A stretch of DNA of 64,000 bases, taken from positions 248,001 to 312,000 of the forward strand of contig NZ_BPQV01000006.1 of NCBI RefSeq assembly GCF_022179465.1, given 5' to 3'. The stretch comes from Methylobacterium organophilum. GTDB taxonomy: Bacteria; Pseudomonadota; Alphaproteobacteria; Rhizobiales; Beijerinckiaceae. Shown here piece by piece: positions 27,708 to 44,624 of this stretch; positions within the stretch are counted from its first letter, which is position 1, and the number at the start of each line of letters is the position of its first letter. Position numbers and translations under genes: made by a program. The notes under the pieces were generated by a model. The model ran no database searches and was not told the DNA's origin. It worked only from the letters and a program-made list of their open reading frames with translations.

Positions 27708-28883
27708 TCAGGGCTCGCTGTCCGTCGCCGTTTCGAACCCCCAATGTCCATCGCGGAGGGCGGGGGCCGTTCGCCGCAAATTCAGCGCGCTGCGCGACAG
27801 GTTGATCGGCGTCCGCAGGCCCGGCTGCCCCTTGGGATCGATCCGCAGGCCTCGTGCCGCCACCTGCGGATCGGCTAGCGCCTCCGCCACGGTGTTGATC
27901 GGTCCGGCCGGAACCCCCGCCTGTTCCAGAGCCGTGATCAGCTCCCCCTTTCGCCAAGTCCGGGTTCGGCCCGCGATAAGCTCGGCCAGGGCGACGCGGT
28001 GGGCGACGCGGGTCTCGTTGGTGGCGTAGCGTGGATCCGTCGCGATCTCGGGGCGATCGAGCAAGGTGCAGAGTGCCGTGAACTGGCGATCGTTGCCGCA
28101 GGCGATGATGAGATGACCATCGCGTGCCGGGAACACCTGATAAGGCACGATGTTGGGATGGGCGTTTCCCATGCGTCGCGGCACGGTGCCGTCGACGAGG
28201 TGGTTCATCGCCTGGTTGGCCAGGACCGCCACCCCCACATCGAGGAGCGACAGGTCGACATGCTGACCGAGGCCGGAACGCTGCCGCTCAGCGAGGGCCG
28301 CCTGGATGCCGATGACGCCGTAGAGCCCCGTGAAGATGTCGATCCAGGCGACCCCGACCTTCTGCGGCTCGCCGCCGGGCTCGCCGGTCAGATCCATGAT
28401 GCCGCACAGGCCCTGGATCATGAAATCGTAGCCCGGCTGCTTCGCCCGCGGCCCGTTCTGCCCGAACCCCGTGACGGAACAATAGACCAGGCGGGGATGA
28501 GCCTTCGACAGGCTCTCGAAATCGAGGCCGAACTTCCTGAGGCCTCCGACCTTGAAGTTCTCGACGACGACATCGGCCTCGGCGATCAGGCCCTTCAGCC
28601 GGGCAAGATCGGCCGGATCGTGGAAATCGCAGGTGACCGAGCGCTTGCCCCTGTTGGCCGCCAGGAAATAGGCGGCGGTCCGCTCGGTGCCGCCTTTCCC
28701 GTCCGGGCGCTCGACGAAGGGCGGGCCCCAGGTCCGGGTATCGTCCCCCTCCGGGCTTTCCACCTTGATGACCTCGGCGCCGAGATCGGCCAGCGTCTGG
28801 CCGATCCAGGGGCCCGCCAGGATGCGGGCCAGTTCCACCACCTTCAGCCCCACGAGGGGGGCCTCCCCCTGAAAGGGCATCAT
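27708..28883 (-). CDS. Class III CoA-transferase, probably succinyl-CoA:glutarate CoA-transferase
   Basis: This 391-residue CaiB/BaiF-family protein begins LVGLKVVELARILAGPWIGQ and has the block ADLGAEVIKVESPEGDDTR. The catalytic Asp is likely that in GIMDLTGEPGG. The family moves CoA between carboxylic acids. The gene overlaps the end of the glutaryl-CoA dehydrogenase gene (stop and start share TGATG), the pairing known for glutarate catabolism, where the transferase activates glutarate with succinyl-CoA. That gives the functional call; the family alone would not. Two start ATGs in a row are possible (28883 or 28880). The stop lies 90 bases from the IS remnant. Confidence 0.8.
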   Translation of the reverse strand: MMPFQGEAPLVGLKVVELARILAGPWIGQTLADLGAEVIKVESPEGDDTRTWGPPFVERPDGKGGTERTAAYFLAANRGKRSVTCDFHDPADLARLKGLIAEADVVVENFKVGGLRKFGLDFESLSKAHPRLVYCSVTGFGQNGPRAKQPGYDFMIQGLCGIMDLTGEPGGEPQKVGVAWIDIFTGLYGVIGIQAALAERQRSGLGQHVDLSLLDVGVAVLANQAMNHLVDGTVPRRMGNAHPNIVPYQVFPARDGHLIIACGNDRQFTALCTLLDRPEIATDPRYATNETRVAHRVALAELIAGRTRTWRKGELITALEQAGVPAGPINTVAEALADPQVAARGLRIDPKGQPGLRTPINLSRSALNLRRTAPALRDGHWGFETATDSEP

Positions 28884-30100
28884 CAGAAGGCCTGGAGACC
28901 GGTCTGAGCGCGGCCGAGAATGAGGGCATGGATGTCATGCGTGCCCTCGTAGGTATTCACCGTCTCCAGGTTCTGGGCATGGCGCATGACGTGATATTCG
29001 ATCTGGATGCCGTTGCCGCCATGCATGTCGCGGGCGGTGCGTGCGATCTCCAGCGCCTTGCCGCAATTGTTGCGCTTGATCAGCGAGATCATCTCCGGCT
29101 CGAAACGATCCTCGTTCATCAGTTCCCCGACCCGCAGGGAGGCCTGAAGACCGAGGGCGATCTCCGTCTGCATGTCGGCGAGCTTCTTCTGGAACAGCTG
29201 CGTCTGGGCGAGCGGGCGCCCGAACTGCCGGCGGTCGAGACCGTATTGCCGGGCGCGGTGCCAGCAATCCTCCGCCGCCCCCATCACGCCCCAGGCAATG
29301 CCGTACCGGGCCCGGTTGAGGCAGCCGAACGGTCCCCGTAGGCCCGACACGTTCGGCAGGAGCGCCCCTTCGCCGACCTCGACGCCGTCCAGCACGATCT
29401 CCCCCGTGACCGAGGCGCGCAGGGACAGCTTCCCGCCGATCTTCGGGGCCGACAGCCCCTTCATGCCTTTCTCCAGCACGAAGCCGCGGATCTTGCCGCC
29501 ATGGGCCTCGGATTTGGCCCAGACGATGAAGACATCGGCGATCGGTGCGTTGGAAATCCAGGTCTTGGCGCCGCGCAGGCGGTAGCCGCCCGCGATCTTC
29601 TCGGCCCGGGTCGTCATGGAGCCGGGATCCGAGCCCGCATCCGGCTCGGTCAGGCCGAAGCAGCCGATCAATTCGCCCGACACGAGGCCGGGCAGATAGG
29701 TCCGGCGCTGCTCGTCAGACCCGTAGGCGAAGATCGGATGGATGACGAGCGAGGATTGAACGCTCATCATGGAACGGTAGCCGGAATCGACCCGCTCGAC
29801 CTCGCGGGCGACGAGACCGTAGGCGATGTAGGAGGCGTTGGCCGCGCCGTATTCCTCCGGCAGGGTGACGCCGAGAAGGCCCGCCTGCCCCATCAGGCGG
29901 AACAGGCCGGGCTCGGTCCGCTCCTCGAGATAGGCTTCCTGCACACGGGGAGCGAGTTCGGCGGCGGCGAAGGCGGCGGCGGTGTCGCGGATCATCCGCT
30001 CTTCCTCGCTGAGCCGATCCTCCAGCAGGAAGGGATCGGCCCAGGCGAAGGCGCCGGTCCTGGGCGCGGCCGAAGCAGCGTCACGTACGATATCGCTCAT
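28883..30100 (-). CDS. gcdH: Glutaryl-CoA dehydrogenase
   Basis: The 405-residue acyl-CoA dehydrogenase contains [17 protein letters not shown] (FAD and substrate loop), [20 protein letters not shown], and near the C-terminus [20 protein letters not shown], which holds the catalytic Glu. This last block and the N-terminal [20 protein letters not shown] are typical of glutaryl-CoA dehydrogenases rather than straight-chain enzymes. The enzyme oxidises and decarboxylates glutaryl-CoA to crotonyl-CoA and passes electrons to ETF. It is the first gene of an operon with the CoA-transferase and is divergent from a LysR gene, the gcdR-gcdHG arrangement. In this window it would finish the route that starts with the enamidase at 40487. 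Confidence 0.92.
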
Positions 30101-30189
30101 GGCAGCGTCCCTGTCCTCCGCGGGAGATGGCGTGCCGGTTTTTTATTGCTGGATCGGCGTGCTCGCCAACGGTATTACGCTCTAAGTTT

Positions 30190-30204
30190 ATGCATAAAAT
30201 GCAT
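30190..30204. promoter_or_regulatory. LysR-type T-N11-A box between gcdH and its regulator
   Basis: ATGCATAAAATGCAT is a perfect symmetrical sequence that contains T-N11-A, the core of LysR-type binding sites. It ends 10 bases before the LysR start and lies 90 bases upstream of the divergent gcdH start. The position suits autorepression together with activation of gcdH. It stands out as AT-rich in a GC-rich gap. Confidence 0.55.
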
Positions 30205-30214
30205 CGATGATCGC

Positions 30215-31108
30215 ATGCGTCCGCGTCGCTTCCTCCCTTCCGTCAGCCAACTCTCCGCCTTCGAATCCGTGCTGCGCACCGGATCGACGGCGGCGGCGGC
30301 CCGTGACATGAACCTGGCGCAGGGAACGGTCAGCCGGCTGGTCCAGTCCCTGGAAGGCCAGCTCGGGCGCGCGCTGTTCGTGCGCCGGAATCAGCGGCTC
30401 GTGGCGACGCCCGCCGCCCTCGCCTATGGCCGCGAGGTCACCCGCGCCCTCGACATTCTGCAGCGCGCGAGCGTCGATCTGGCTTCCAACCCGGATGGAG
30501 GCGCCCTGTCCCTGGCCATCCTGCCCGCCTTCGGCACGCGCTGGCTCTCACCCCGGCTCAGCCGTTTCCTGGTCAAGCATCCGGGCGTCAGCATCCATCT
30601 CGGGACGCGCCTCAAGCGATTCGACTTCGATGCGGAAGCTTTCGACGCGGCGATCCACTTCGGCCACGACGACTGGCCGGAGACCGAGCGGATGGAATTG
30701 TTCAAGGAGGGGCTGACCGCCTGCGTCGCGCCGGACCTCCTGGCCCGCACGCCGATCCAATGCCTTGAAGACATGAAGAAGCTGCCGCTCCTGCGGATCG
30801 AAACCCGCCCGACCGCGTGGCGGACATGGTTCGAGGCGCAGGGGGCGCCGCCACCGGCGATCACCGGCATGCTGTTCGACCAATTCGCTCCCATGACCCA
30901 GGCAGCGATCTACGGTCTGGGTGTCGCGCTCCTGCCGCACTACCTGGCGGAGGCGGAAATCGCCGAGGGCCGGCTGGTGCCGCTGTTTCGCCAAGCGGTC
31001 CCGGGCTCCGGATCGTATTGGCTGGTCTGGCCTCGGTCGCGGCCTCCCTCCCCTGCCCTCATCGCCCTGTTGGAATGGCTGCGCTCGGAAATCGGCGGGC
31101 AGACCTGA
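30215..31108 (+). CDS. LysR family regulator of glutarate catabolism (GcdR-like)
   Basis: This 297-residue protein has the LysR winged HTH at residues 6-65 (LSAFESVLRTGSTAAAARDM, then QGTVSRLVQSLEGQLGRALF) and an effector domain of usual length. The start is the ATG at 30215; a longer in-frame extension upstream overlaps gcdH on the other strand and is not protein-like. Divergence from gcdH and the intervening T-N11-A box make it the likely activator of gcdH and the CoA-transferase, probably in response to glutarate. The effector is inferred from the neighbours only. The HTH and effector domain resemble the GcvA/AmpR branch. Confidence 0.85.
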   Translation: MRPRRFLPSVSQLSAFESVLRTGSTAAAARDMNLAQGTVSRLVQSLEGQLGRALFVRRNQRLVATPAALAYGREVTRALDILQRASVDLASNPDGGALSLAILPAFGTRWLSPRLSRFLVKHPGVSIHLGTRLKRFDFDAEAFDAAIHFGHDDWPETERMELFKEGLTACVAPDLLARTPIQCLEDMKKLPLLRIETRPTAWRTWFEAQGAPPPAITGMLFDQFAPMTQAAIYGLGVALLPHYLAEAEIAEGRLVPLFRQAVPGSGSYWLVWPRSRPPSPALIALLEWLRSEIGGQT

Positions 31109-31165
31109 CCAGGCCCCGAACCGCCGTTCCGACGTTGCCGGCACGATGCCGCGTGTTCGAGCGCC

Positions 31166-32233
31166 TTACGGCACCCCGGCCGCAGCCCCATCGGCCCGCG
31201 GCGTGGCGACGGCATCGTCGGCGTCACGCCGGGCGGCAACCGAACCGGCAGACCCCGGCGTCAGGCGCCGTCGCAGGCGGCGGGGCGGCGGAAGATGAAG
31301 CAGGCCGGCCAGCAGACCCTGGGGCGCGAGCACCACGGTCGCCACGAACAGGAGCCCGAGCGCGAGCAGCCAGTAATCGGCAAGGGTCGCCGACATGACG
31401 TTCTCGGCCGAGCGCACCAGGAGGGCGCCGAGGAAGGCCGCCATCAGGACCGCGCGTCCCCCGACCGCCACCCAGATCAGCACCTCGGTGGACAAGGCGA
31501 ACCCGACGAGGCTCGGCGACACGAAGTTGAACTGGACGGCGAAGAGCGCGCCCGCCAGCCCCGCGATCCCGCCGGAGACGGTGAAGACGAAGATCTTGTG
31601 GCTGCGGACATTGTAGCCGAGATGGGCGGTGCGGTTCTCGTCGTTGCGGATCGCCGCGAGCACCGTGCCGAGGGGCGAGCGGGTGATGGCGAGGCCGAGG
31701 AGATAGGCCGCGAGCGCCGCCGCCAGCGTGGCGTAGGCGGTGCCGATGCCCGACAGCGTGTCGCCCTCGAAGGGGAAGGCCAGGGGCGGCACGCCGAACA
31801 GGCCGTTGAAGCCGCCGATGAAGTCCCAGCGCCGTGCCGCCGTCTCGGCGACCACCGCCGCGCAGAGGGTGACGATGCCGAGTTGCGCTCCCGCCAAAGC
31901 GCGCCCGCGGAAGAGCAGCCAGCCGATCAGTGCCGCGGCCGCCGCCGGCAGGGCGAGGGCGAGGGCGAGGCCGGTCCATTGGCTGGTGCCGAGGGCCGGG
32001 AGCTTGCCGAGGGTGACCAGGGCCATGCTGTAGGCGCCGATCCCGAAGAAGATGGCCTGCCCGAAGCACAGGATGCCGGCCGTGCCCCAGAGAAGGCCGA
32101 GGCTGAGGGCGAAGATGCCGTAGGTGACGTATTGGGCCAGCAGGCTGGCGTTCCAGTCGCCGAGCATCGGCGGCAGGATCGCGAGCATTGCCCAGCACAG
32201 GAGCGTCAGGAGGGTTCCACGAGCCACGCGCAT
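31166..32233 (-). CDS. ABC transporter permease, LivM/UrtC type
   Basis: The 355-residue protein has about ten hydrophobic segments and the family blocks YGIFALSLGLLWGTAGILCF, GQAIFFGIGAYSMA and SGGIAGLAGALFAVQFNFVS. It forms the membrane pore with the LivH-type protein. The start ATG overlaps the stop of that gene. The last 35 residues are Arg/Ala-rich and may be partly dispensable. It is the last gene of a five-gene operon (binding protein, two ATPases, two permeases) that runs from 35791. The cargo is probably amide-, urea- or amino-acid-like, see the binding protein. Confidence 0.88.
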   Translation of the reverse strand: MRVARGTLLTLLCWAMLAILPPMLGDWNASLLAQYVTYGIFALSLGLLWGTAGILCFGQAIFFGIGAYSMALVTLGKLPALGTSQWTGLALALALPAAAAALIGWLLFRGRALAGAQLGIVTLCAAVVAETAARRWDFIGGFNGLFGVPPLAFPFEGDTLSGIGTAYATLAAALAAYLLGLAITRSPLGTVLAAIRNDENRTAHLGYNVRSHKIFVFTVSGGIAGLAGALFAVQFNFVSPSLVGFALSTEVLIWVAVGGRAVLMAAFLGALLVRSAENVMSATLADYWLLALGLLFVATVVLAPQGLLAGLLHLPPPRRLRRRLTPGSAGSVAARRDADDAVATPRADGAAAGVP

Positions 32234-33087
32234 CAGCGCCGACCTCCCGTCAGACCTTGAGGAAAGAAGCGGATCACCACGATGGCGAGCAGGAAGACCA
32301 GGATCTGCGCATCGGCCTGATCGAGCCGGGCCGAGAGCAATGTGGTCGTGCCGCCGATCACGCCCGAGCCGAGGGCGGCGCCGACCAGCGAGTTCACGCC
32401 GCCGACGAGGACGGCCAGGAAGGAGGGCACGAGGAAGCCCATCCCCATCTGCGGATCGACGCTCATGATCGGGGACATCACGGCCCCGGCGAAGCCGGCC
32501 AGGGCCGCGCCGGTGGCGAAGGTCGCCCAGTCCATGCGGCGGGTGTTGACGCCGAGCGAGGCGGCCATGGCCCGGTTGGCGATGACGCCGCGCGCCTGGA
32601 GGCCGAGGGAGGTGCGGAAGAACAGCCAGTAGGTGGCGAGGGCCAGGCCCAGACCCATGGCCATGATGAAGAGGCGGTAGGCCGGATAGGCGACGCCGAT
32701 GAGGTCGATCGTGCCGGGGATCGGATTGGGCACGCTCTGCGAACCGGGGCCGAACAGGATGATCACCCCCTGCTTCAGGGCCAGCGAGAGGCCCCATGTG
32801 GCTAGGATCGTATCGATGAAGCGGCGGTAGATGTGACGCACGACCAGCCATTCGATCGCGAAGCCGAGCAGGGCGAGGAGGCAGGGGGCGAGCACCAGGC
32901 CGAGCCAGAACGAGCCGCCGGCCCGCGTGATCGCCACCACCGCGTAGGCGCCGATCAGGAAGAACTCGCCATGCGCCATGTTGATGACGTTCATCATGCC
33001 GAAGATGACCACGAGACCGAGCGTCACCAGCAGCAGGGTCAGCGTGAACGAGAGCGTGTCGATCGAGAGCGCGATCACGGTGGCCAT
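32233..33087 (-). CDS. ABC transporter permease, LivH/UrtB type
   Basis: This 284-residue membrane protein has about eight hydrophobic segments and the typical blocks LLVTLGLVVIFGMMNVINMAH, GEFFLIGAYAVV and FLAVLVGGVNSLVGAALGSG. It pairs with the downstream LivM-type protein. The gene starts seven bases after the ATPase gene. Order and overlaps show one transcript. It resembles urea-transport permease UrtB about as much as LivH, so the substrate stays open. Confidence 0.88.
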   Translation of the reverse strand: MATVIALSIDTLSFTLTLLLVTLGLVVIFGMMNVINMAHGEFFLIGAYAVVAITRAGGSFWLGLVLAPCLLALLGFAIEWLVVRHIYRRFIDTILATWGLSLALKQGVIILFGPGSQSVPNPIPGTIDLIGVAYPAYRLFIMAMGLGLALATYWLFFRTSLGLQARGVIANRAMAASLGVNTRRMDWATFATGAALAGFAGAVMSPIMSVDPQMGMGFLVPSFLAVLVGGVNSLVGAALGSGVIGGTTTLLSARLDQADAQILVFLLAIVVIRFFPQGLTGGRR

Positions 33088-33094
33088 GGGCGCC

Positions 33095-33805
33095 TCAGAT
33101 CGAAAGAAAGCGATGGACGAGGTCGGGATTGGAGCGCAGCTCGCCCACCCCGGCTTGCTCCGGCGCGATCCGGCCGTTCTCCATGAACAGGATCCGGCTC
33201 GCGAGCTGCTCCACGAAGTCGAGATTCTGCTCGACGATCAGCACGGTCAGCTTCCTCTCGCGGGCGATCCGACCCAGGGTGACCGCGATCTCGTCGACGA
33301 TCGAGGGCTGGATCCCTTCCGAGGGCTCGTCGAGGAGCAGGAGCCGCGGCTGGCCCACCAGCGCCCGCATGATGGCGAGCTGCTGCTGCTGCCCGCCCGA
33401 GAGCGTGCCGGCGCGCTGGGCGCGGCGCTCGCCGAGGATGGGGAAGATCTCGAAGGCCTCGGCCGGAACGCTCCGGGGCAGACCCGGCTTGCCGAGGGCC
33501 CCCAGCATCAGGTTTTCCTCGACTGTGAACTGCGCAAACACTTCCCGGCCCTGCGGCACGTAGCCGATGCCCGCCCGGGCGAACTGGAAGGTCGGTTGGC
33601 CGCCGAGGCTGCGCCCTCCGAGCCGGATCGTGCCGGCCTGGAGCGGCAGCTGCCCGCACAGGGCGCGCATCAGCGTCGTCTTGCCCATGCCGTTGCGGCC
33701 GAGCAGGGCGACGATCTCGCCCTCCTTCAGCTCCAGCGCGACGCCGTCCAAGATGCGCCCGCCGGACGGATAGCCGGCCGCCAGGCCCTCGACATGCAGC
33801 ATCAT
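33095..33805 (-). CDS. ABC transporter ATPase, LivF/UrtE type
   Basis: The 236-residue ATPase has Walker A LLGRNGMGKTTLMRAL, the Q-loop region GYVPQGREVFAQFTVEENL, signature LSGGQQQQLAIMRALVGQ and Walker B RLLLLDEPSEGIQPSI. GYVPQGREVFxxFTVEENL is characteristic of the LivF/UrtE branch. Two adjacent ATGs begin the gene, which overlaps the preceding ATPase gene by four bases. It provides ATP hydrolysis for the branched-chain/amide-type importer in this operon. Confidence 0.9.
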   Translation of the reverse strand: MMLHVEGLAAGYPSGGRILDGVALELKEGEIVALLGRNGMGKTTLMRALCGQLPLQAGTIRLGGRSLGGQPTFQFARAGIGYVPQGREVFAQFTVEENLMLGALGKPGLPRSVPAEAFEIFPILGERRAQRAGTLSGGQQQQLAIMRALVGQPRLLLLDEPSEGIQPSIVDEIAVTLGRIARERKLTVLIVEQNLDFVEQLASRILFMENGRIAPEQAGVGELRSNPDLVHRFLSI

Positions 33806-34575
33806 CGGACGCGTCCAAGGTAAGACTGGATGACCGCCGGGTCGCGACTAACCTCGTCATAGTTGCCGCGGGCGATCACCTTGCCGCGGACCATGACCAC
33901 GATCGGGCATCCGAGGGCGCGGACGAAGCCCATGTCGTGCTCGATCAGGAGCACCGCCCGGCCGTGCTTGTTCTGAAGCTCGATCACGAGATCGCAGACC
34001 GCCTGCGTCTCCACGGTGGACATGCCGGCCGTGGGCTCGTCGAGCAGAAGGATCCGCGAGCCCCGCGCCAGCAGCATCGCGATCTCCAGGCGCTGGCGCT
34101 CGCCATGCGAGATGGTCGCGACCGCCTGCTCCGCCTTGGCGGCGAGGCCGCAGAGGTCGAGCAGCTCGTCCCGGCGCGTCCGGCTCACCGCCCCGCCGCC
34201 GAGCCGCCGCAGGAGCGCGAGGGGGCCGTTTCCGGCCCCGCCCGCCATGAGCGGAACCTCGAGATTCTCGGCCACGGTCAGTTCGGGATAGATGCCGGGC
34301 ACCTGGAATTTGCGCCCGACCCCCTTGCGCGAGATCTCGTGCGGGGCGAGCCCGCCCACCTCCGCGCCGTCGACCCGGATGGTTCCCCCGTCCGGCGTGA
34401 GGGCGCCGGTGATGAGGTTGAACAGGGTGGTCTTGCCACAACCGTTCGGGCCCAGGATGCAAGCCATGGCGCCGCGACCGAGCTGAAGATCCAGCCCATC
34501 GAGGACGGTCAGCCCGCCGAAGCGCTTGGAGACGCCCGTCAGTTCGAGGGCGGGCGGGAGGCCAGGCTCGCTCAT
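33802..34575 (-). CDS. ABC transporter ATPase, LivG/UrtD type
   Basis: The 257-residue ATPase has Walker A LGPNGCGKTTLFNLI, the segment GRKFQVPGIYPELTVAENLE, signature ISHGERQRLEIAMLLARG and Walker B RILLLDEPTAGMS. The C-terminal loop VMVRGKVIARGNYDEV is that of LivG/UrtD proteins. The signature reads ISHGERQ rather than LSGGQ, as is usual for the UrtD branch. It follows the binding-protein gene after 25 bases and overlaps the LivF-type gene. Confidence 0.9.
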   Translation of the reverse strand: MSEPGLPPALELTGVSKRFGGLTVLDGLDLQLGRGAMACILGPNGCGKTTLFNLITGALTPDGGTIRVDGAEVGGLAPHEISRKGVGRKFQVPGIYPELTVAENLEVPLMAGGAGNGPLALLRRLGGGAVSRTRRDELLDLCGLAAKAEQAVATISHGERQRLEIAMLLARGSRILLLDEPTAGMSTVETQAVCDLVIELQNKHGRAVLLIEHDMGFVRALGCPIVVMVRGKVIARGNYDEVSRDPAVIQSYLGRVR

Positions 34576-34600
34576 GGCTCTTCTCCGCAGCCGCGCCGCC

Positions 34601-35791
34601 TCAACCGCACTGGCTCGGGGCTTCGATCCGGCCGAGATCCTTGACGACCTTGAGCTTGCCGGCCTGGGCCTGGACGATCAGGACGTTGAGATCGGCATGC
34701 CGGTCGGAGGCGCGCATCACTACCTCGCCGTTGCCGGACATCAGGGGATGGCCGACCATCGCCTGGGCCACGGCCTGCTTGTCGACCGTGCCGGCCCGCT
34801 TCACGCCCTCGATGAAGAAGCGCGTCAGCGTGTAGTGGGCATCGACGGTGTTGGAGACGACGGTCGACGCGCCGTAGCGCGCCCGCACCTTGGCGACGAA
34901 GGCCTGCGCCTCGGGCTTGTCGAGCGTCTGGACGAAGTTGGACGGGGCGACGATGCCTTCGGATTCCTCGGCCGACAGGCCGGCCATATAATTCTCGCCG
35001 AAGCCGAAGAAGATCATCCGGATCCGCTTGTTGAGCCCGGCGGCCGTGAACTGCTTGACGAAGGTGATCGCGTCCGCCCCGACGATGGAGACCACCACGA
35101 CCTCGGCTCCCGAGCTCTCGATCTTGCGCAGCGTCGCCGAATAGTCCTTCGCGCCCCACGGCGTGTATTCCTCGCCGAGGACGCGGCCGCCGGCCTTCTC
35201 GGCCTGCGTGCGGAAGGCGGCGTTCATCTTCTGCGGCCAGACATAGTCGGACCCGATGAGATAGAATGCCTTGCCGAGATTGGAGAGGGCGTAGGGAATC
35301 AGCGGGTTCACCCAATGCGCCGGCAGGGCGCTGTAGCAGAAGACCCGCGGATCGCAGACGCCGCCCTCGTAGTCGGTGGCGTAGAGCAGAAGCGACTGGA
35401 AACGACGGACGGTCGGCAGGATCGCGTCCCTGTTGGCGCTCGTCACCGGGCCGACGATCGCGGCGACCTCGTTCCGGCGAATCAGTTCGAGCGTCCGCTC
35501 CACGGCCGTTTTCGGATCGGTCCGGTCGTCGGCTCGGACGATCTCGAAGGGACGGCCGCCGAGCACGCCCCCGGCCTCGTTGGCCTCCAGCAATGCCAGC
35601 TCGGTCCCCTGCGCGCCCTGCGTGCCCAGAACCTCGAGACCGCCTGAGAAGGGCTGAAGGATGCCGACCCGAATCGGCTCGGCCGCGCGGGCCAGATAGG
35701 GCCGCCCGAGGCTGACGGCGAGGGCGCCGGCACTGCCGAGGATGAGGCCGCGGCGGGATATGGGCCGATGCGCGGAAGAGAGAATGCTCAT
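34601..35791 (-). CDS. Periplasmic substrate-binding protein, amide/urea (AmiC/UrtA/FmdD) type
   Basis: The 396-residue protein has a Tat-type signal (ISRRGLILGSAGALAVSLG) and a type I periplasmic binding fold: RVGILQPFSGGLEVLGTQGA, the segment LLLYATDYEGGVCDPRVFCY, and FYLIGSDYVWPQKMNAAFR. The TDYEGG and GSDYVWP blocks are shared with AmiC, FmdD and UrtA, receptors for short amides and urea, more than with LivJ. It heads the importer operon. Next to an enamidase, a cysteine hydrolase and glutarate genes, a carboxylated heterocycle or an amide is a reasonable cargo, but that is inference. A palindrome lies about 145 bases upstream of the start. Confidence 0.88.
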   Translation of the reverse strand: MSILSSAHRPISRRGLILGSAGALAVSLGRPYLARAAEPIRVGILQPFSGGLEVLGTQGAQGTELALLEANEAGGVLGGRPFEIVRADDRTDPKTAVERTLELIRRNEVAAIVGPVTSANRDAILPTVRRFQSLLLYATDYEGGVCDPRVFCYSALPAHWVNPLIPYALSNLGKAFYLIGSDYVWPQKMNAAFRTQAEKAGGRVLGEEYTPWGAKDYSATLRKIESSGAEVVVVSIVGADAITFVKQFTAAGLNKRIRMIFFGFGENYMAGLSAEESEGIVAPSNFVQTLDKPEAQAFVAKVRARYGASTVVSNTVDAHYTLTRFFIEGVKRAGTVDKQAVAQAMVGHPLMSGNGEVVMRASDRHADLNVLIVQAQAGKLKVVKDLGRIEAPSQCG

Positions 35792-35934
35792 TGTCCGTCC
35801 CCCTGTGCCTGAAGACGCGCGAGGCGGACGGCTCGGCCGCTGTTTGCGGCCATTCCCACCGATGCCCAGCGACGCCTGTTCGATCGTCGCTCCCGCAATC
35901 CGGCTCGAAGCGACCTCCGAAACCTAAAGCGGCA

Positions 35935-35952
35935 CACCAAAATTTGTTGGTG
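35935..35952 (-). promoter_or_regulatory. Palindrome upstream of the importer operon
   Basis: CACCAA (35935-35940) and TTGGTG (35947-35952) are exact complements around AATTTG. It lies 144 bases upstream of the binding-protein start. Part of it (TTTGTTGGTG) resembles the element found at 36094 and 39131, so the same regulator may bind here more weakly. The rest of the 340-base gap to 36134 holds the promoter described next. Confidence 0.35.
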
Positions 35953-36070
35953 CTCGCATGAGATTATGAGTGGTCTAACAACCTGTCAATCGACTTGACC
36001 GGGTCTCCAAGACATGACCCGGCGCTCTTCGCCGGCAAGGATTTGATGGCGCCCCTTCGGCGATCCCTGC

Positions 36071-36112
36071 TTGACAGCAACCCGATGACAGATTTTGTTT
36101 GTGTACCAACGA
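36071..36112 (+). promoter_or_regulatory. Promoter and operator-like element ahead of the AA_synth operon
   Basis: TTGACA at 36071-36076 is a perfect -35 box. Seventeen bases on, TTTGTTTGTGTACCAACGA (36094-36112) lies over the expected -10 region and shares TTTGT-x-TGTGTAC-x-AAC with the element at 39131-39149 upstream of the cysteine hydrolase gene. Both are imperfect inverted repeats around TGTA. A repressor bound here would block the promoter; the MarR gene at 39870 is the obvious candidate. Confidence 0.5.
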
Positions 36113-36134
36113 AAGGGTCATGGAAGGCAGTGGG

Positions 36135-36719
36135 ATGGCAACGCCAAGCGTTCGCAAGTTCGTGACGATCGTGGACGAGGTCTTCCACGAGAACGGTCCG
36201 CCCGCGTCGACGCCCCAGCGCCGCGGCGCGATCCTGGCGGTCATCGAGAATCCGTTCGCAGGCCGTTACGTGGAGGAGATCCAGCCCTTCATGACGGATC
36301 TGGAGCCCCTCGGCCTCGAGATGGCGCGGCGGCTGATCGAGGCCCTCGGCGGGGCGCCCGAAACCGTGGAGGCTTATGGCAAGGGGGCCATCGCCGGGAC
36401 CGCCGGCGAGCTCGAACACGCCGCCCTCTGGCACGCGCCGGGGGGCTACGGCATGCGGGAGGCCCTCGGCGGCGCCAAGGCCATCGTCCCCTCCGCGAAG
36501 AAGGTGGGCGCACCGGGAACGCGCATCGACATCCCGATCGCGCACAAGGACGCCTCCTACGTCCGCAGCCATTTCGACGCCATGGAGGTCGGCATCAACG
36601 ATGCGCCCCGGGCGAACGAGCTGGTGGTCGTGCTGGCCATGACGACGGGCGCCCGCGTCCATAGCCGCTCCGGCGGTCTGGAGGCCTCCGCCATCGAGGG
36701 CAAGGACGGCCTGCGATGA
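36135..36719 (+). CDS. AA_synth (PF06684, DUF1185) family protein, first copy
   Basis: The 194-residue protein belongs to the so-called amino acid synthesis family: VRKFVTIVDEVFHENG at the start, AVIENPFAGRYVEEI, AGELEHAALWHAPGG and IDIPIAHKDASYVRSHFDAM. The name of the family is historical, and no reaction has been firmly assigned to it as far as I know. The start is the ATG at 36135 (GAAGG seven bases upstream), which also aligns with the start of the second copy; an ATG at 36120 is less likely. It overlaps the next gene by four bases. Conserved His in GELEHAA and HKDA and Asp/Glu residues suggest an enzyme. The pair sits between promoter and aldehyde dehydrogenase gene, so it acts in the same pathway. 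Confidence 0.85.
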   Translation: MATPSVRKFVTIVDEVFHENGPPASTPQRRGAILAVIENPFAGRYVEEIQPFMTDLEPLGLEMARRLIEALGGAPETVEAYGKGAIAGTAGELEHAALWHAPGGYGMREALGGAKAIVPSAKKVGAPGTRIDIPIAHKDASYVRSHFDAMEVGINDAPRANELVVVLAMTTGARVHSRSGGLEASAIEGKDGLR

Positions 36720-37300
36720 GCAAGGATATCCGCCGTATCGTCACGATCGTCGAAGAGACGCTGCAGGAAGGCGGGCGGCCCGTTGCCTCCCCCATCCGGC
36801 GCTGCGCCGCGGTGGCGGTGATTCGCAACCCGCATGCCGGCCGCTTCGTCGAGGATCTGTCCGATCTCACCGCCATGGGCACGGCGCTCGGCCGGATCCT
36901 GCCCGAGCGGGCTCTGTCGGCGCTGAAGCTGCCCGGCGCGGCCGTGCAGAGCTTCGGGAAGGCCGCGCTCGTCGGCGCCGAGGGCGAGCTGGAGCATGCC
37001 GCCGCCCTGCTGCATCCGACGCTCGGCACGCCGTTTCGGGAGGTGCTCGGCAAGGGAGCGGCCCTGATCCCCTCCTCGAAGAAGCGGGGACGGCCCGGTG
37101 CCGCCTTCGACATCCCCCTCGGCCACAAGGACGCGGCCAAGGTGCGCAGCCATTTCGACGGCATGGAGGTCCTCGTGCCGGATGCGCCGCGGGAGGACGA
37201 GATCGCGGTCGCCATCGCCATCACGGATGGCGGCCGTCCGCATCCGCGCGTCGGCGGCCTTCGGCTGGAGGCGATCAAGGGCGAGGACGGCTTGGTCTGA
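36716..37300 (+). CDS. AA_synth (PF06684, DUF1185) family protein, second copy
   Basis: This 194-residue protein is plainly a paralogue of the preceding one: same length, same start, and shared blocks (VTIVEETLQEGG, VAVIRNPHAGRFVEDL, GELEHAAALLHP, DIPLGHKDAAKVRSHFDGME, VPDAPREDE). By eye about half the residues match. Start and stop of the two genes overlap as ATGA, so they are made in equal amounts and may form a hetero-oligomer. The first copy has HAPGGYGMREALGG where this one has HPTLGTPFREVLGK, so the two are not freely interchangeable. Function unknown; a role in processing the enamidase product is possible. Confidence 0.85.
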   Translation: MSKDIRRIVTIVEETLQEGGRPVASPIRRCAAVAVIRNPHAGRFVEDLSDLTAMGTALGRILPERALSALKLPGAAVQSFGKAALVGAEGELEHAAALLHPTLGTPFREVLGKGAALIPSSKKRGRPGAAFDIPLGHKDAAKVRSHFDGMEVLVPDAPREDEIAVAIAITDGGRPHPRVGGLRLEAIKGEDGLV

Positions 37301-37354
37301 GCCGGGCCGATCCTGATCGAATCGGGCCGGAGGTCCGGACAGAAAGTGAAACCC

Positions 37355-38788
37355 ATGGCCTATCCGAACACCGGACTGCAGATCGGGGGCACCTGGATCG
37401 CGGCGGAAGCCCGCGCGGCGCTCCCGGTCGTCAACCCGGCCACCGGCGCGGTGATCGGGGCGGTCGCCAAGGCCACCGCCGACGATCTCGACCGGGCGCT
37501 GGCCGCGGCCAAGCGCGGCTTCGCGGCCTGGCGGGCCGTCTCCGCCCTCGAACGCGGGCTGATCCTGCGCCGGGCCGCCGAGCTGCTGCGCGCGCGCGTC
37601 GAGACGATCGCCCGGCTGATGACCCTGGAACAGGGCAAGCCCCTGCGCGAGGCGCGGGTCGAGACCTTGGCCGCCGCCGACACCCTGGACTGGTTCGCCG
37701 AGGAGGGCCGGCGCGCCTATGGCCGGGTGATCCCGGCGCGGGCCGAGGGCGTGATGCAGACGGTGATCCGCGAGCCTGTCGGGCCGGTCGCCGCCTTCAC
37801 GCCCTGGAACTTCCCGCTCAACCAGGCGGTGCGCAAGGTCGCCGCCGCCCTCTGCGTCGGCTGCAGCGTGATCCTGAAAGGGGCGGAGGATACGCCGGCG
37901 AGCTGCGCCGCGCTGGTGCAGGCGCTGCTCGATGCCGGCGTGCCGGGCGAGGCGCTCGGCCTGCTCTACGGCGATCCGCCCTCGATCTCGGCCTACCTGA
38001 TTGCGGCGCCGGAGATCGCCAAGATCTCCTTCACCGGCTCGACCGCGGTCGGGAAGCTGCTCGCGACGCTGGCCGGCACCCACATGAAGCGGGTGACGAT
38101 GGAGCTCGGCGGGCACGCTCCGGCGATCGTCTGCGCCGATGCCGATCTCGAACGGGCGGTCGAGATCCTGGCCGCCAACAAGTTCCGCAATGCCGGCCAG
38201 GTCTGCGTCGCGCCGACGCGCTTCCTCGTCGAGCGGCCGGTCTACGAGGACTTCGTCGAGCGCTTCGCCGCGCGGGCGGCGGCGATCACGGTCGGCGACG
38301 GCCTCGCCGAGGCCACGCAGATGGGGCCGCTGATCCACGAGCGCCGCCGCCGCGCCGTGGAGGAGCTGATCGCCGAGGCCGAGGCCGCCGGCGGCCGGAT
38401 CGTGACCGGGGGCCGCCGCCCGCACAACCGGGGCTTCTTCCTGGCCCCGACGGTGCTCACCGACGTGCCGGTGAGCGCCCGCATCCTGAACGAGGAGCCG
38501 TTCGGCCCGGTCGCGACGGTGGCGGCCTTCTCGGATCTGGACGAGGCGCTGGCCGAGGCGAACCGTCTGCCGTTCGGGCTGGCGGCCTATGCCTATACCC
38601 GGTCGAGCCGGACGGCGTCGCGGCTGGGGTCCGGCCTCGCCTGCGGCATGCTCGGCATCAACCATCACGGCCTGGGCCTGCCCGAGACGCCGTTCGGCGG
38701 GGTGGGCGATTCCGGCTACGGCAGCGAGGGCGGACCGGAGGCCCTGGAAGGCTACCTCGCGACGAAGTTCATCACGATGGCAGCGTAG
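37355..38788 (+). CDS. NAD(P)-dependent aldehyde dehydrogenase, succinate/glutarate semialdehyde type
   Basis: The 477-residue enzyme has PWNFPLNQAVRKVAAALCVG, the general-base Glu in VTMELGGHAPAIV (about residue 250) and the nucleophile Cys in NAGQVCVAPTRFLVE (about residue 281). Overall layout is that of GabD-type succinate-semialdehyde dehydrogenases, which also accept glutarate semialdehyde. In this cluster the expected job is oxidation of glutarate semialdehyde to glutarate, the substrate of the CoA-transferase at 27708; that is inferred. The start may be the ATG at 37355 or a GTG three codons earlier, which has GGAGGT 11 bases upstream. It lies 54 bases after the AA_synth pair, in one operon. 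Confidence 0.88.
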   Translation: MAYPNTGLQIGGTWIAAEARAALPVVNPATGAVIGAVAKATADDLDRALAAAKRGFAAWRAVSALERGLILRRAAELLRARVETIARLMTLEQGKPLREARVETLAAADTLDWFAEEGRRAYGRVIPARAEGVMQTVIREPVGPVAAFTPWNFPLNQAVRKVAAALCVGCSVILKGAEDTPASCAALVQALLDAGVPGEALGLLYGDPPSISAYLIAAPEIAKISFTGSTAVGKLLATLAGTHMKRVTMELGGHAPAIVCADADLERAVEILAANKFRNAGQVCVAPTRFLVERPVYEDFVERFAARAAAITVGDGLAEATQMGPLIHERRRRAVEELIAEAEAAGGRIVTGGRRPHNRGFFLAPTVLTDVPVSARILNEEPFGPVATVAAFSDLDEALAEANRLPFGLAAYAYTRSSRTASRLGSGLACGMLGINHHGLGLPETPFGGVGDSGYGSEGGPEALEGYLATKFITMAA

Positions 38789-38790
38789 GG

Positions 38791-38988
38791 CCGTTCGCTC
38801 TCGGTCCCTATATTGCCTACGACTTCGGAAGCTTCGCGATCTCGGCCTGGTACGACCAGCATATCAGGACGCGGAATGCGGCGGCCGCCAACATCGCCTG
38901 GCTGAGGGTTTCGGTGCCTCTCGGCAATCCCTTCACCGCGGAGCCTCAGGCTCCGCCGGTGACCCTGCCGGACCGAAAGGTTCCGTAG
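38791..38988 (+). pseudogene. C-terminal fragment of an outer-membrane transporter (phenol MetA-like)
   Basis: Directly after the aldehyde dehydrogenase stop, an open stretch without a start codon reads FALGPYIAYDFGSFAISAWY, then RTRNAAAANIAWLRVSVPLG and stops at 38988. Alternating strands, the RNxxxAN block and the PLG ending are those of barrel proteins of the Phenol_MetA_deg type, such as the intact one at 4691. The first two thirds are missing. It implies that the catabolic operon once carried its own outer-membrane channel. Confidence 0.5.
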
Positions 38989-39000
38989 CAGACTTCATCC

Positions 39001-39048
39001 GCCTGGAGCATTTTCCGTGATCCGATGATCATGGGAAATGCTCCAGGC
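39001..39048. repeat. Long inverted repeat (dispersed palindrome or terminator)
   Basis: GCCTGGAGCATTTTCC (39001-39016) pairs with GGGAAATGCTCCAGGC (39033-39048) with one mismatch around a 16-base loop that itself contains TGATCA-like symmetry. Its GGAGCATTTTCC core resembles short dispersed palindromes common in Hyphomicrobiales genomes. It also sits where a terminator for the upstream operon is expected, though without a T-run. Confidence 0.55.
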
Positions 39049-39110
39049 GCCCGCCGGCCCCGGCCGTCTCGCAGAGACGGGACGGCCGCAGCGGTTTGGG
39101 ACAGCGATCC

Positions 39111-39149
39111 TTGACTTCTGGCCGATTCAGTTTGTATGTGTACGAACAA
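39111..39149 (+). promoter_or_regulatory. Promoter and operator-like element ahead of the cysteine hydrolase-MarR operon
   Basis: TTGACT at 39111-39116 is a good -35 box, with TATGTG 18 bases on as -10. Overlapping the -10, TTTGTATGTGTACGAACAA (39131-39149) repeats the element at 36094-36112 (14 to 15 of 19 positions agree) and is an imperfect inverted repeat, TTGT...ACAA around TGTA. The match between two operons of one pathway, and the MarR gene in this operon, point to autoregulation. Confidence 0.55.
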
Positions 39150-39175
39150 TCTCAAGCCGCGCGGGGGAGTCTGCC

Positions 39176-39868
39176 TTGGTCGAGATGCGAGATGCCGAGC
39201 CGCTGTCGGACCAGGCCGGCTCCTCCTCGGATGTGTTCTCCGCCAACCGGTTGCGGGAGACCGTCCGCCTCGATGCGGCCCGGACGGCGGTGGTCGTGAT
39301 CGACATGGTCAACGACTTCTGCAAGCCGGGCGGCGCGATGGTCCTGCCGGGATACGAGCGCCTCGTCGGCCCTCAACGCGCGATCATCGAAGCGGCCCGC
39401 TCCGTCGGTGCGCCGGTGGTCTGGGTGCACGATTCCCATCGCCGGAACCTGCGTCGGGACCGTGAGTGGCTGAAGCGCACGCCGCATTGCGTCGAGGGCA
39501 CCTGGGGCGTCGAGGTCATCACGGATCTGAACGCCCGCGACGACGAGATCCATGTCGTCAAGCATCGCTATTCGGCCTTCTTCAACACCGACCTCGATGT
39601 GACGATGAAGGACATGCTCGTGGACCAGCTGGTCGTGATGGGCGTGGTCACCAATATCTGCGTGCGCTCGACCGTCCATGACGGCTTCTTCCTCGGCTAC
39701 GAGATCGTCGTGCCCGAGGATGCCTGCGCGGCCACCGGCCCGCGCGAGCAGGCAAGTTCCCTCTACGACATCGCGACCCATTTCGGCGTGGTGAGCGACG
39801 CTGCCAGCGTCGCGCACGCCCTGGTGAACGGAGCCGAGATCAGCAACCGCGCCGATCTCGGAGCCTGA
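39176..39868 (+). CDS. Isochorismatase-like cysteine hydrolase (amidase)
   Basis: The protein of about 230 residues has the catalytic triad of the family: Asp43 (VVIDMVNDF), Lys129 (VVKHRYSAFF) and Cys162 (GVVTNICVRSTVHDG), with numbering from the proposed TTG start. Relatives hydrolyse amides such as ureidoacrylate, N-carbamoylsarcosine or maleamate. The TTG at 39176 has GGGGAG six bases upstream; the ATG three codons on (39185) lacks a site, so TTG is preferred with some doubt. In this cluster it may hydrolyse an amide intermediate formed after ring opening, for example a glutarate monoamide. It is followed after one base by the MarR gene. Confidence 0.85.
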   Translation: MVEMRDAEPLSDQAGSSSDVFSANRLRETVRLDAARTAVVVIDMVNDFCKPGGAMVLPGYERLVGPQRAIIEAARSVGAPVVWVHDSHRRNLRRDREWLKRTPHCVEGTWGVEVITDLNARDDEIHVVKHRYSAFFNTDLDVTMKDMLVDQLVVMGVVTNICVRSTVHDGFFLGYEIVVPEDACAATGPREQASSLYDIATHFGVVSDAASVAHALVNGAEISNRADLGA

Positions 39869-39869
39869 C

Positions 39870-40406
39870 ATGCGCCCCGATCACGCAGCGCACGACGCGT
39901 TGGCGAACGATCCGCGCTCCCAGGGGGCGGGCGAGCCTACCCGGCGCGAGGAGGCCTTGGCGGTCTTCGCGAAGGTCGGCTACGACTTGGAGCGCCATCC
40001 CGCGCATGTGATCCGCCGCGTCCATCAGCGGGCGACATCCTGCTTCCAGCAGGTCATGGCGGGGGAGACGCTGTCCCCGACGCAGTTCGCGGCGCTCGCC
40101 ACGATCCTGAAGCACGGGGAAATCTCCCAGAACCATCTCGGCCGGCTGACGGCGATGGACCCGTCGACCACCAGCCTCGTGGTGCGCAAGCTCGTCAAGG
40201 ACGGGCTGATCTCGCGCAGCACCTCCAAGGCAGATCAGCGGCTCACGATCATCCGGCTGACCGACGAGGGGCTGCGATACACCGCCAACCGCCTGGAGCG
40301 CAGCCTGGAGGTCGGCCGGCGGCTGCTCAGCCCCCTGAAGCCGAGCGAGCAGAAAGTCTTCCTCGCGTTGCTCGAACGCATCGCGAACGACGAGACCCCG
40401 CTTTGA
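39870..40406 (+). CDS. MarR family transcriptional regulator
   Basis: The 178-residue protein has a winged HTH in LSPTQFAALATILKHGEISQ, NHLGRLTAMDPSTTSLVVRK and SKADQRLTIIRLTDEG, the usual MarR layout with the DxR wing. An N-terminal extension of about 40 residues precedes it. It lies one base after the cysteine hydrolase gene and 80 bases before the enamidase gene. MarR proteins commonly repress catabolic operons until a pathway compound binds; the nicotinate regulator NicR is of this family. The repeated element at 36094 and 39131 is a likely binding site. The ligand is unknown. Confidence 0.88.
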   Translation: MRPDHAAHDALANDPRSQGAGEPTRREEALAVFAKVGYDLERHPAHVIRRVHQRATSCFQQVMAGETLSPTQFAALATILKHGEISQNHLGRLTAMDPSTTSLVVRKLVKDGLISRSTSKADQRLTIIRLTDEGLRYTANRLERSLEVGRRLLSPLKPSEQKVFLALLERIANDETPL

Positions 40407-40486
40407 GCGCGCGCCGAAACGCCACCCCCTTCGGCGGAGAGCGCGCCATCGCGTCCCGCCCCTCTCGATGATCTGAAGGACGAGTC

Positions 40487-41704
40487 ATGGCTGCGCCCAG
40501 CGCGGAAATCCGGCAACAGGGCCAGATTGCGATCCGCAATATCGGCCTGCTTCTCAGCGGCGACATCTCCCGGCCGATCCTCGACGCCGATACGATCCTG
40601 ATCGAGGACGGGCTCATCAAGGCGGTCGGCCGGGCCGATGCGATCGATCTCGCCGCCGCCCATACCGTGACCGATGCCTGCGGTGCGGTCGTCACGCCGG
40701 GCCTCATCGACAACCACGTCCATACGACGGCAGGCGACTGGACGCCGCGCCAGAACCAGCTCGGCTGGATCGAGGCGAGCATGCATGGCGGCGTCACCAC
40801 CATGATTTCGGCGGGTGAGGCGCATTATCCCGGTCGGCCGCGCGATCGCGTGGGCATCAAGGCGCTGGCGATCGCCGCCCAGCGCAGCTACGTCAACTTC
40901 CGTCCCGGCGGCGTGAAGGTCATCGCCGGCGCGCCGGTGCTCGAGCCGGGCTTCACGGAGGCGGATTTCCGCGAGTTGGCCGAGGCGGGAGTCTCGCTCA
41001 TCGGCGAAATCGGCCTCGGCGGCATCAATGACGGCCCCCGGGGACGGCAGATGATCGCCTGGGCCCGCGCCCACGGCATGACCTCCATGACCCATACCGG
41101 CGGCCCGTCCATTCCCGGCTCCAGCCGGATCGGGGCCGACACGGTGATCGAGGTGGATGCCGACATCGCGGCCCACATCAATGGCGGGCCGACGGCGCTG
41201 CCCTTCGAGGAGCTCGACCGCATCGTCGACGAGAGCGATCAGGCGCTCGAGATCGTCCATAACGGCAATCTGCGGGCCGGTCTCCATGTGCTCGAGCGGG
41301 CGGCGCGGCGCGGTGCGCTCGACCGCATCCTCCTGGGCACGGACGGCCCGGCGGGTTCGGGTGCGCAGCCCCTCGGCATCCTTCGGATGATCGTGATGTT
41401 GGCCTCGCTGAGCGAGATTCCCGTGGAGACGGTCTTCTGCTTCGCGACGGGCAATGTCGCCCGTGTGCGCAAGCTGTCCGACCGCGGCGTGATCGAGCCC
41501 GGCCGTGCCGCCGACCTGATCGTCATGGATCGCGCCGCGGGCGGCGCCGGGACGACGTTCCGGGAAAGCCTCGCGCTTGGAAACATCCCGGGCATCAGCA
41601 TGGTGCTGATCGATGGCGTGACGCGAACCACGCGAAGCCGCAACACCCCCCCGGCCGACAGAGTGCCGTCGACCACAATGCCCCTCGGGCCTGTCGTCGC
41701 CTGA
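40487..41704 (+). CDS. Enamidase-like amidohydrolase (6-oxotetrahydronicotinate ring opening)
   Basis: The 405-residue protein is an amidohydrolase with metal ligands His77 and His79 (DNHVHTTAGD), a probable bridging Glu174 (LIGEIGLG), His203 (MTHTGG), His230 (AAHINGGPTA) and Asp286 (LLGTDGPAGSG). From memory it follows Eubacterium barkeri enamidase along its whole length, including GGVTTMISAG, HTGGPSIPGSS, HINGGPTA and the C-terminal IPGISMVLIDG and SRNTPPA, which are not general amidohydrolase motifs. Enamidase opens 1,4,5,6-tetrahydro-6-oxonicotinate to 2-formylglutarate and ammonia with a binuclear zinc site. The start has GAAGGACG upstream. Neighbouring glutarate genes agree with this function. 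A close relative acting on another cyclic enamide is the main alternative. Confidence 0.85.
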   Translation: MAAPSAEIRQQGQIAIRNIGLLLSGDISRPILDADTILIEDGLIKAVGRADAIDLAAAHTVTDACGAVVTPGLIDNHVHTTAGDWTPRQNQLGWIEASMHGGVTTMISAGEAHYPGRPRDRVGIKALAIAAQRSYVNFRPGGVKVIAGAPVLEPGFTEADFRELAEAGVSLIGEIGLGGINDGPRGRQMIAWARAHGMTSMTHTGGPSIPGSSRIGADTVIEVDADIAAHINGGPTALPFEELDRIVDESDQALEIVHNGNLRAGLHVLERAARRGALDRILLGTDGPAGSGAQPLGILRMIVMLASLSEIPVETVFCFATGNVARVRKLSDRGVIEPGRAADLIVMDRAAGGAGTTFRESLALGNIPGISMVLIDGVTRTTRSRNTPPADRVPSTTMPLGPVVA

Positions 41705-42541: not shown

Positions 42542-42611
42542 GCGCCCCCTCCCCGTCCCTGCCGATTTCCGCGCGCGGCCCCGGCCTGCGCCCGACCAGC
42601 GAGTGCCCGTC

Positions 42612-44616: not shown

Positions 44617-44624
44617 GGTCGACC

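Follow-up and report, generated by a model that had tools for sequence, protein, structure and literature searches.

The enamidase reaction has been described for Eubacterium barkeri, where 6-oxo-1,4,5,6-tetrahydronicotinate (THON) is the reported substrate of the enzyme (PMC7356986). In Azorhizobium and Bradyrhizobium, 6-hydroxynicotinate reductase (HNR) is reported to be a part of the nicotinate cluster, and a route leading from THON to glutarate is given in the same source (PMC3511419). The present work deals with a stretch of 64,000 nucleotides from Methylobacterium organophilum (contig NZ_BPQV01000006.1, positions 248,001 to 312,000), which will be referred to as the window, and with a group of genes between its positions 27708 and 41704 that includes an enamidase homologue starting at 40487. 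The genome concerned (5.06 Mb, 113 contigs) has a completeness of 100 and a contamination of 0.09. We interpret this region, with what we judge to be an even chance of being correct, as a catabolic island for a THON-type lactam, its predicted substrate, which would enter the pathway without the action of HNR; THON would in that case probably be reached from a carboxamide.

The original prediction had recognised the product of the gene at 40487 as an enamidase homologue, and this is upheld by its alignment with the E. barkeri enzyme (PDB 2VUN), which is matched with an E value of 7.7e-122 over residues 14–393, i.e., near the full length, the next PDB match being at 7.7e-07. Six residues of the protein (H77, H79, E174, H203, H230, and D286), which are presumably the metal ligands typical of the superfamily, are identical in 2VUN. 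A tree was constructed from 42 of the 91 sequences collected, comprising a group of 20, 12 sequences linked to an amidase gene (that of the window included), nine more distant sequences, and 2VUN. In this tree the group of 20, which contains the Azorhizobium type and for 14 members of which HNR is present within the fetched stretch, was separated from the 12 amidase-linked sequences with support of 99/98. The amidase-linked sequences perhaps represent a grade and not a clade, and the placement of 2VUN is unsure due to long branches. In the more distant clade (clade B), lysine occupies position 174 in eight of the nine sequences. The window enamidase thus branches outside the Azorhizobium-type group and appears, judging from its sequence, to be a member of an amidase-linked lineage that is shared with Mesorhizobium.

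This branching is also what would be expected if the enamidase had shifted to another lactam or a cyclic enamide, so that the island degraded an unrelated N-heterocyclic amide, an explanation which we consider quite unlikely. The presence of an amide-class importer and an amidase in the island, and of proline at position 235 where all 20 members of the HNR-linked group have histidine, are in agreement with it. However, the same proline is found in 2VUN, for which THON is the reported substrate (PMC7356986), as well as in all 12 amidase-linked and the nine distant sequences.

The query for HNR was a protein that adjoins the hydroxylase in sister clusters, and its identity is backed by plasmid orthologues (65–71%) annotated as 6-hydroxynicotinate reductase. 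Of 40 genomes with an enamidase, 33 contain HNR, viz. 29 of the 32 in which the enamidase match is at least 55% and four of the eight with only a more distant enamidase. It also lies within the locus in 46 of 80 named enamidase loci, which are the best 80 of 587 relatives in our scan and form the basis of all counts per 80 loci reported here. No match at E 1e-10 was detected in the window genome (rated 100% complete), in Methylobacterium symbioticum, or in five further genomes. The upper steps of the route had earlier been described as not assigned with certainty. Beyond this, the enzymes known to catalyse them were not found in the genome: besides HNR, the search for an Ndh-type nicotinate hydroxylase gave no orthologue there (best match 38%, compared with 54–100% in 32 of the 40 enamidase genomes), the NicAB-type hydroxylase not having been searched for.

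Alternatively, the island could serve the complete aerobic catabolism of nicotinate or nicotinamide, with hydroxylation and ring reduction carried out by unrecognised, non-orthologous enzymes encoded elsewhere in the genome. A hydroxylase query of the xanthine-oxidase type has 20 matches in the genome (of 33 candidates from a first look, 22 were scored), the palindrome and PF06684 genes described below are common to nicotinate clusters, and in Eoetvoesiella caeni the amidase occurs in one row with HNR. These observations are in favour of this alternative, but the window genome and M. symbioticum are two of the only three genomes with an enamidase of at least 55% that have no HNR, and we regard it as unlikely.

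The conserved unit extends from 27708 to 41704. In it, gcdG-gcdH and a LysR gene are followed by the genes for an importer of the urea class, two PF06684 genes, those for an aldehyde dehydrogenase and an amidase of the isochorismatase type, a MarR gene, and the enamidase gene. Its features are as follows, and the reading frames are intact in all 14 genes.

27708–28883, minus strand: gcdG-like class III CoA-transferase (PF02515; NF052585, succinate--glutarate CoA-transferase, 519.6 bits, below its cut-off of 750; 86% in the M. symbioticum island)
28883–30100, minus strand: gcdH, glutaryl-CoA dehydrogenase, island-specific copy (PDB 4w9u, 3gnc)
30215–31108, plus strand: LysR-type regulator, gcdR-like (PF00126, PF03466)
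31166–32233, minus strand: urtC-type permease (PF02653; TIGR03408 below cut-off)
32233–33087, minus strand: urtB-type permease (PF02653; TIGR03409 just below cut-off)
33095–33805, minus strand: urtE-type ATPase (PF00005; synteny)
33802–34575, minus strand: urtD-type ATPase (PF00005; TIGR03411 below cut-off)
34601–35791, minus strand: urtA-type periplasmic binding protein of the amide/urea class (PF13458; TIGR03407, 231.7 bits, below cut-off)
36093–36114, no strand: palindrome TTTTGTTTGTGTACCAACGAAA, putative MarR operator, 5' of the run from PF06684 to aldehyde dehydrogenase (pattern scan)
36135–36719, plus strand: PF06684 (DUF1185, 'AA_synth') protein 1 (PF06684)
36716–37300, plus strand: PF06684 (DUF1185, 'AA_synth') protein 2 (PF06684; PDB 2qtp, 3byq)
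37346–38788, plus strand: aldehyde dehydrogenase, succinate-semialdehyde class (PF00171; TIGR01780, 464 bits, below its cut-off of 646; PDB)
39130–39151, no strand: palindrome GTTTGTATGTGTACGAACAATC, second copy, 33 bases 5' of the amidase start (pattern scan)
39185–39868, plus strand: isochorismatase-type cysteine amidase (PF00857)
39870–40406, plus strand: MarR-type regulator (PF01047)
40487–41704, plus strand: enamidase (2VUN, E 7.7e-122)

The open reading frame of the amidase opens at 39038, its real start probably being 39185, and the importer genes (31166–35791) together specify urtA, two ATPases, and two permeases of a urea/amide-class ATP-binding cassette system. All of the components that had been named in the original prediction (the aldehyde dehydrogenase, the cysteine hydrolase, MarR, the amide-type importer, glutaryl-CoA dehydrogenase and the CoA-transferase) are present, to which our analysis adds the PF06684 pair, the LysR gene, and the two palindromes. 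The closest named relative is M. symbioticum SB0023/3, where the unit consists of two PF06684 genes, aldehyde dehydrogenase, amidase, MarR, and enamidase, a divergent urtADEBC, and then gcdH-gcdG right after urtC; in that unit (L142), there is no LysR gene between urtC and gcdH, and one extra gene is found between the aldehyde dehydrogenase and the amidase. Because it spans gcdG to enamidase with different genes outside, and because the fumarate-reductase-like and HEAT genes that follow in the window are found in none of the 80 enamidase loci, the ends that had been predicted, 27708 and 41704, are nearly exact. The region is a real, self-contained and conserved catabolic island. Its type of enamidase is limited to this genome and M. 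symbioticum among 37 genomes of the genus, a third genome having a 46% relative. In the same genus, locus L036 (genome G025, 7628–17375) contains a distant enamidase (45–46%, with lysine at the E174 position), an aldehyde dehydrogenase (33%), a PF02441 flavoprotein (UbiX-like), and PF06684, in addition to an amidase and a UbiD-like protein that are labelled by sequence inspection only; it appears to represent a further, different enamidase pathway.

Outside the island, the window contains at 42150–45590 a flavoprotein resembling fumarate reductase (above the cut-off of NF006131) and, after it, a protein with HEAT repeats, and at 19163–25435 an FAD monooxygenase-class protein, a molybdenum hydroxylase large subunit (MoCoBD_2 ahead of MoCoBD_1), a [2Fe-2S] subunit, and a short-chain dehydrogenase, with an AraC-type gene adjoining. 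The first two were considered as a replacement ring reductase and rejected, both being found in none of the 80 enamidase loci (at least 50%) and the flavoprotein being encoded by 21 of the 60 genomes of the genus examined, in M. symbioticum on a different contig. The hydroxylase pair (21191–24065) was similarly rejected as a nicotinate hydroxylase: 31 of these 60 genomes have its large subunit, which in M. symbioticum again lies on a different contig. Neither the flavoprotein nor the hydroxylase is an island member; both are ordinary genes of the genus, which speaks against the interpretation that the island serves complete nicotinate catabolism. Other features of the window include a large DUF4011/AAA/REase_MTES_1575/DUF3320 protein of the helicase-nuclease type, possibly a defence gene (11901–18041), a subtilase-autotransporter protein (50300–53596), and a selenocysteine tRNA gene (62126–62220).

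With regard to the lower route, gcdH (E 1e-100) is present in 42 of 60 genus genomes with identities of 76–81% except for the two island copies. These are 94% identical to each other, whereas the second gcdH of M. symbioticum shows 79%; the window genome has the island copy only. Because gcdHG directly follow urtC in M. symbioticum and gcdH forms this 94% lineage of its own, the two genes are regarded as island members in these two species, and the separate lineage rules them out as unrelated housekeeping neighbours. The earlier claim that the lower part of the route is encoded here has therefore been borne out, with the glutaryl-CoA genes as true members. The link is rarer elsewhere, gcdG being found in five and gcdH in two of the 80 loci. 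In three loci with HNR-type enamidases (L043, L048, and L121), an aldehyde ferredoxin oxidoreductase-like gene adjoins the enamidase (the Pfam test covered L048 only), which suggests that there are several variants of the lower route.

The closest PDB matches of the amidase are RutB and isochorismatase-like proteins, nicotinamidases being weaker. The nicotinamidase (PncA) pattern consists of a catalytic D/K/C triad and metal ligands D-x-H...H...H. Residues D26, D69, H71, H87, K112, and C145 of the amidase are invariant in 10 aligned sequences, in which a fourth metal ligand was not seen. Because an amide-class importer and an amidase with invariant, presumed catalytic and metal residues occur together, entry of a carboxamide is proposed; the importer and the cysteine hydrolase suggest an amide as the entry compound instead of free nicotinate. 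The amidase (at least 45%) is present in 14 of the 80 enamidase loci, viz. M. symbioticum and 13 Mesorhizobium loci (L056–L068), and HNR is within the locus in none of these. A trimmed query revealed a 15th amidase locus in Eoetvoesiella caeni, where HNR is present; the row there consists of the amidase, urtADEBC, a second isochorismatase-type protein, HNR, a protein that we take to be UPF0280-like (hypothetical in NCBIfam), two PF06684 genes, enamidase, and gcdG. The enamidase of this species branches inside the group of 20, and no strong palindrome is found at its locus.

HNR is encoded elsewhere in 10 of 11 Mesorhizobium genomes searched, M. soli being the one without it. In all eight Mesorhizobium genomes searched for both, the sole enamidase (E 1e-40) is that of the amidase locus, and seven of these eight carry HNR elsewhere. 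As it is the only one available beside HNR in these seven, it presumably handles THON, which argues against the explanation that this lineage has shifted to another lactam. Of the five Mesorhizobium HNR loci that were fetched, none contains an enamidase, and that of M. plurifarium (L138) has HyuAB instead. In 11 of the 13 Mesorhizobium amidase loci, two nucleoside hydrolases and a nucleoside-type importer are also present, the remaining two being on short contigs. Nucleosides were rejected as the entry compound of the window island, as no match to the nucleoside hydrolase family was found in the window genome, nor in M. symbioticum. In four of seven fetched loci with no enamidase nearby, relatives of the amidase (59–64%) are likewise accompanied by an importer of the amide class and by an amidase (labelled from inspection).

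Information on a second type of ring-opening enzyme was provided by 72,556 plasmid records, in which co-occurrence was judged within the same record and not against chromosomes; the records are often close kin (12 from Sulfitobacter, six from Sinorhizobium medicae) and do not represent independent events. Enamidase was found in 25 records (16 at 54–59%, nine more distant) and HNR in 26. A single type of HyuA reached 59.8% or more in 17 records, the next match being at 48% (best 25 of 353 records). The 26 HNR records comprise 16 with the 54–59% enamidase and 10 with the HyuA type, and none has both. The amidase was present in seven records (six of S. medicae and one of Rhizobium rhododendri), all seven of which contain the HyuA type and none an enamidase (E 1e-60). 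S. medicae ml29 carries the genes for the importer and for a pair of nucleoside hydrolases together with those for the amidase, MarR, PF06684, and HyuA and a HyuB frame; HyuB is apparently split across two frames there and one ATPase is annotated as two pieces, whereas the HyuB frame of R. rhododendri is whole. The HyuB label is from inspection, and the HyuA and HyuB subunits are 60–79% alike between the records of S. medicae, R. rhododendri, and M. aquaticum. HyuAB belongs to a class of ATP-dependent lactamases of which the caprolactamase CapAB is an example (PMC8453981). Because the HyuA type and enamidase are mutually exclusive in both the HNR and the amidase records, they may open the same lactam, and this interchange in two contexts is a further point against a changed substrate of the enamidase. 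In M. aquaticum, HyuAB adjoins HNR: the plasmid pMaq22A_1p (L169, 3368–15442) carries a urt-type importer, HyuA-HyuB, HNR, MarR, a UPF0280-like protein, and PF06684, with no enamidase in the stretch. Its HyuAB is a probable alternative THON lactamase. Among the matches listed, no publication was found in which HyuAB, or an amidase of the isochorismatase type, is connected with this pathway.

The palindrome TTTGTNTGTGTACNAACNA occurs twice in the window, at 36094 and 39131, compared with no occurrence in 100 shuffles, the pattern having been written after the sites had been seen. A matrix built from these two sites alone was then applied to the 80 named loci, of which 36 contained sites of at least 17 bits in the 5' zones of pathway genes, and six contained such sites outside these zones; for 200 shuffled matrices, from which those correlating above 0.5 with the original had been removed, the mean was 1.36 and the maximum 10. 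The 17-bit threshold was set after a first run, in which there was no threshold and the amidase start had been placed too far upstream; the top sites then fell within the zones in 26 of 80 loci, and the shuffled matrices, which likewise favoured AT-rich promoters, gave 21.4 on average and 42 at most. As the threshold is raised from 14 to 22 bits, the loci with an in-zone site decrease from 40 to 14 and those with an outside site from 15 to one. Further loci with sites include Azorhizobium, Xanthobacter, Bosea, and Bradyrhizobium, HNR clusters being among them, and no betaproteobacterial locus with such a site was seen in the list of best sites of the 80 loci. Sites are also present 5' of the nucleoside importer in S. 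medicae (22.3 bits) and R. rhododendri (19.9 bits), with weaker ones (14.2 bits) 5' of HyuA. Of the seven fetched loci where a relative of the amidase occurs with no enamidase nearby, five were scanned, the best score being 12.3 bits. The palindromes are putative MarR operators, and two signs, namely the shared palindrome and the mutual exclusion of enamidase and HyuA, tie the island to nicotinate catabolism. The candidate operator could be used to seek the regulon in other alphaproteobacteria.

The best palindrome site is 5' of the amidase in 14 of 15 amidase loci, and in those 14 the amidase, MarR, and enamidase genes are consecutive. This arrangement speaks against cross-feeding, according to which THON or products of 6-hydroxynicotinate would be taken up from other microbes and the amidase would act on another amide. 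The failure to find HNR in the genome (E 1e-10) and the patchy occurrence of this enamidase type (two of 37 genomes, as indicated above) are consistent with such an explanation, which we hold to be very unlikely.

A PF06684 gene is present in 65 of the 80 enamidase loci. In the trigonelline chemistry a 2-formyl-dicarboxylate is expected, as in the THON pathway, and because this is so in both pathways, a role in decarboxylation or tautomerisation is proposed for this family, protein 1 being a possible 2-formylglutarate decarboxylase or tautomerase. The suggested function, from 2-formyl-dicarboxylate to semialdehyde, would be shared by the trigonelline system. Its PF06684 homologue, TgnF, is cited as stimulating semialdehyde oxidation by TgnE, although the authors citing this report no such effect for their own HcdD (PMC7913881); a chorismate-mutase-like fold has been described for the family and a function in amino-acid metabolism suggested (PMC2954203).

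Sequence comparisons indicate that the island encodes an enamidase, glutaryl-CoA dehydrogenase, a CoA-transferase, and an aldehyde dehydrogenase and importer of the classes described, and from these we infer the substrate, the order of the steps, and the roles of the amidase and PF06684 proteins. The urt-type importer would take up a carboxamide, from which the isochorismatase-type amidase would release the carboxylate to yield THON. By homology, the enamidase should then open THON to 2-formylglutarate and ammonia, and the PF06684 pair may help in decarboxylation or tautomerisation to glutarate semialdehyde, which the aldehyde dehydrogenase (proposed to be a glutarate-semialdehyde dehydrogenase) would convert to glutarate. 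GcdG and GcdH are predicted, again by homology, to lead from glutarate to glutaryl-CoA and crotonyl-CoA. The MarR protein may bind both palindromes and repress the genes until an intermediate appears.

Several observations weigh against this scheme. The aldehyde dehydrogenase (at least 60%) is found in one and urtA (at least 45%) in four of the 80 loci, so these are not general parts of the pathway, and the models for the CoA-transferase, the aldehyde dehydrogenase, and the urt proteins all score under their curated cut-offs. The amidase has no characterised close relative and, in view of its 59–64% relatives at loci with no enamidase nearby, may be a general amide hydrolase. Its co-occurrence with HNR, in the E. 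caeni row and in 10 of 11 Mesorhizobium genomes, means that it may simply supply the ordinary nicotinate route, and the E. caeni row favours this plainer view. One of the five Mesorhizobium HNR loci (L138) has HyuAB of its own, so that the enamidase there need not serve HNR. Lastly, we know of no natural source of a THON amide. Of the original prediction of a nicotinate island, the enamidase and the lower route stand; the rest is not supported, as HNR and the Ndh-type hydroxylase were not found, an amide entry is suggested, and the enamidase lies outside the Azorhizobium-type group.

A more specific and speculative proposal, which we consider rather improbable, is that of a reductase-free route for an already reduced 6-oxo-1,4,5,6-tetrahydronicotinamide (e.g., arising from NAD(P)H by hydration or oxidation), which after deamidation would be opened by either enamidase or HyuAB and burned via glutarate. 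At the rhizobial loci, where genes for nucleoside import, for two nucleoside hydrolases, and for a short-chain dehydrogenase are added, its riboside could be the source. If true, this would, as far as we know, be the first route by which damaged pyridine nucleotides are catabolised, and it would be served by two unrelated ring-openers. More generally, the enamidase appears to be separable from 6-hydroxynicotinate reductase, and its annotation alone should not be taken to indicate nicotinate catabolism; HyuAB is named here as a probable second THON ring-opener.

In comparison with the E. barkeri enamidase system, the window encodes a full-length homologue in which the six presumed metal residues and P235 are identical; it differs in that the island continues with glutarate semialdehyde and glutaryl-CoA genes and HNR was not found in the window genome. 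Nicotinate fermentation by E. barkeri proceeds instead through a methyleneglutarate branch. The trigonelline pathway of Acinetobacter with TgnE/TgnF, reportedly described by Perchat in 2018, is said to involve ring opening by an oxygenase and succinate semialdehyde, with no lactam hydrolysis. It resembles the island in its PF06684-type protein, reported to stimulate the semialdehyde dehydrogenase (PMC7913881). With the aerobic nicotinate cluster of Azorhizobium, Bradyrhizobium, and strain SG-6C, as reported in PMC3511419, the island shares enamidase, PF06684, the palindrome in relatives, and a lower route via glutarate, whereas it has an amidase and another importer in place of HNR and the Ndh-type hydroxylase, and its enamidase falls outside that group. 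Relatives of the ATP-dependent lactamases (CapAB, PMC8453981) occupy through HyuA the place of the enamidase in sister loci, whereas none is among the window island genes, where the enamidase is ATP-free. Lastly, although nucleoside hydrolases and a nucleoside-type importer are added at the Mesorhizobium loci L056–L068 (11 of 13), with no hydrolase match in the window genome, these loci share with the island the row of amidase, MarR, and enamidase, as well as PF06684 and the palindrome.

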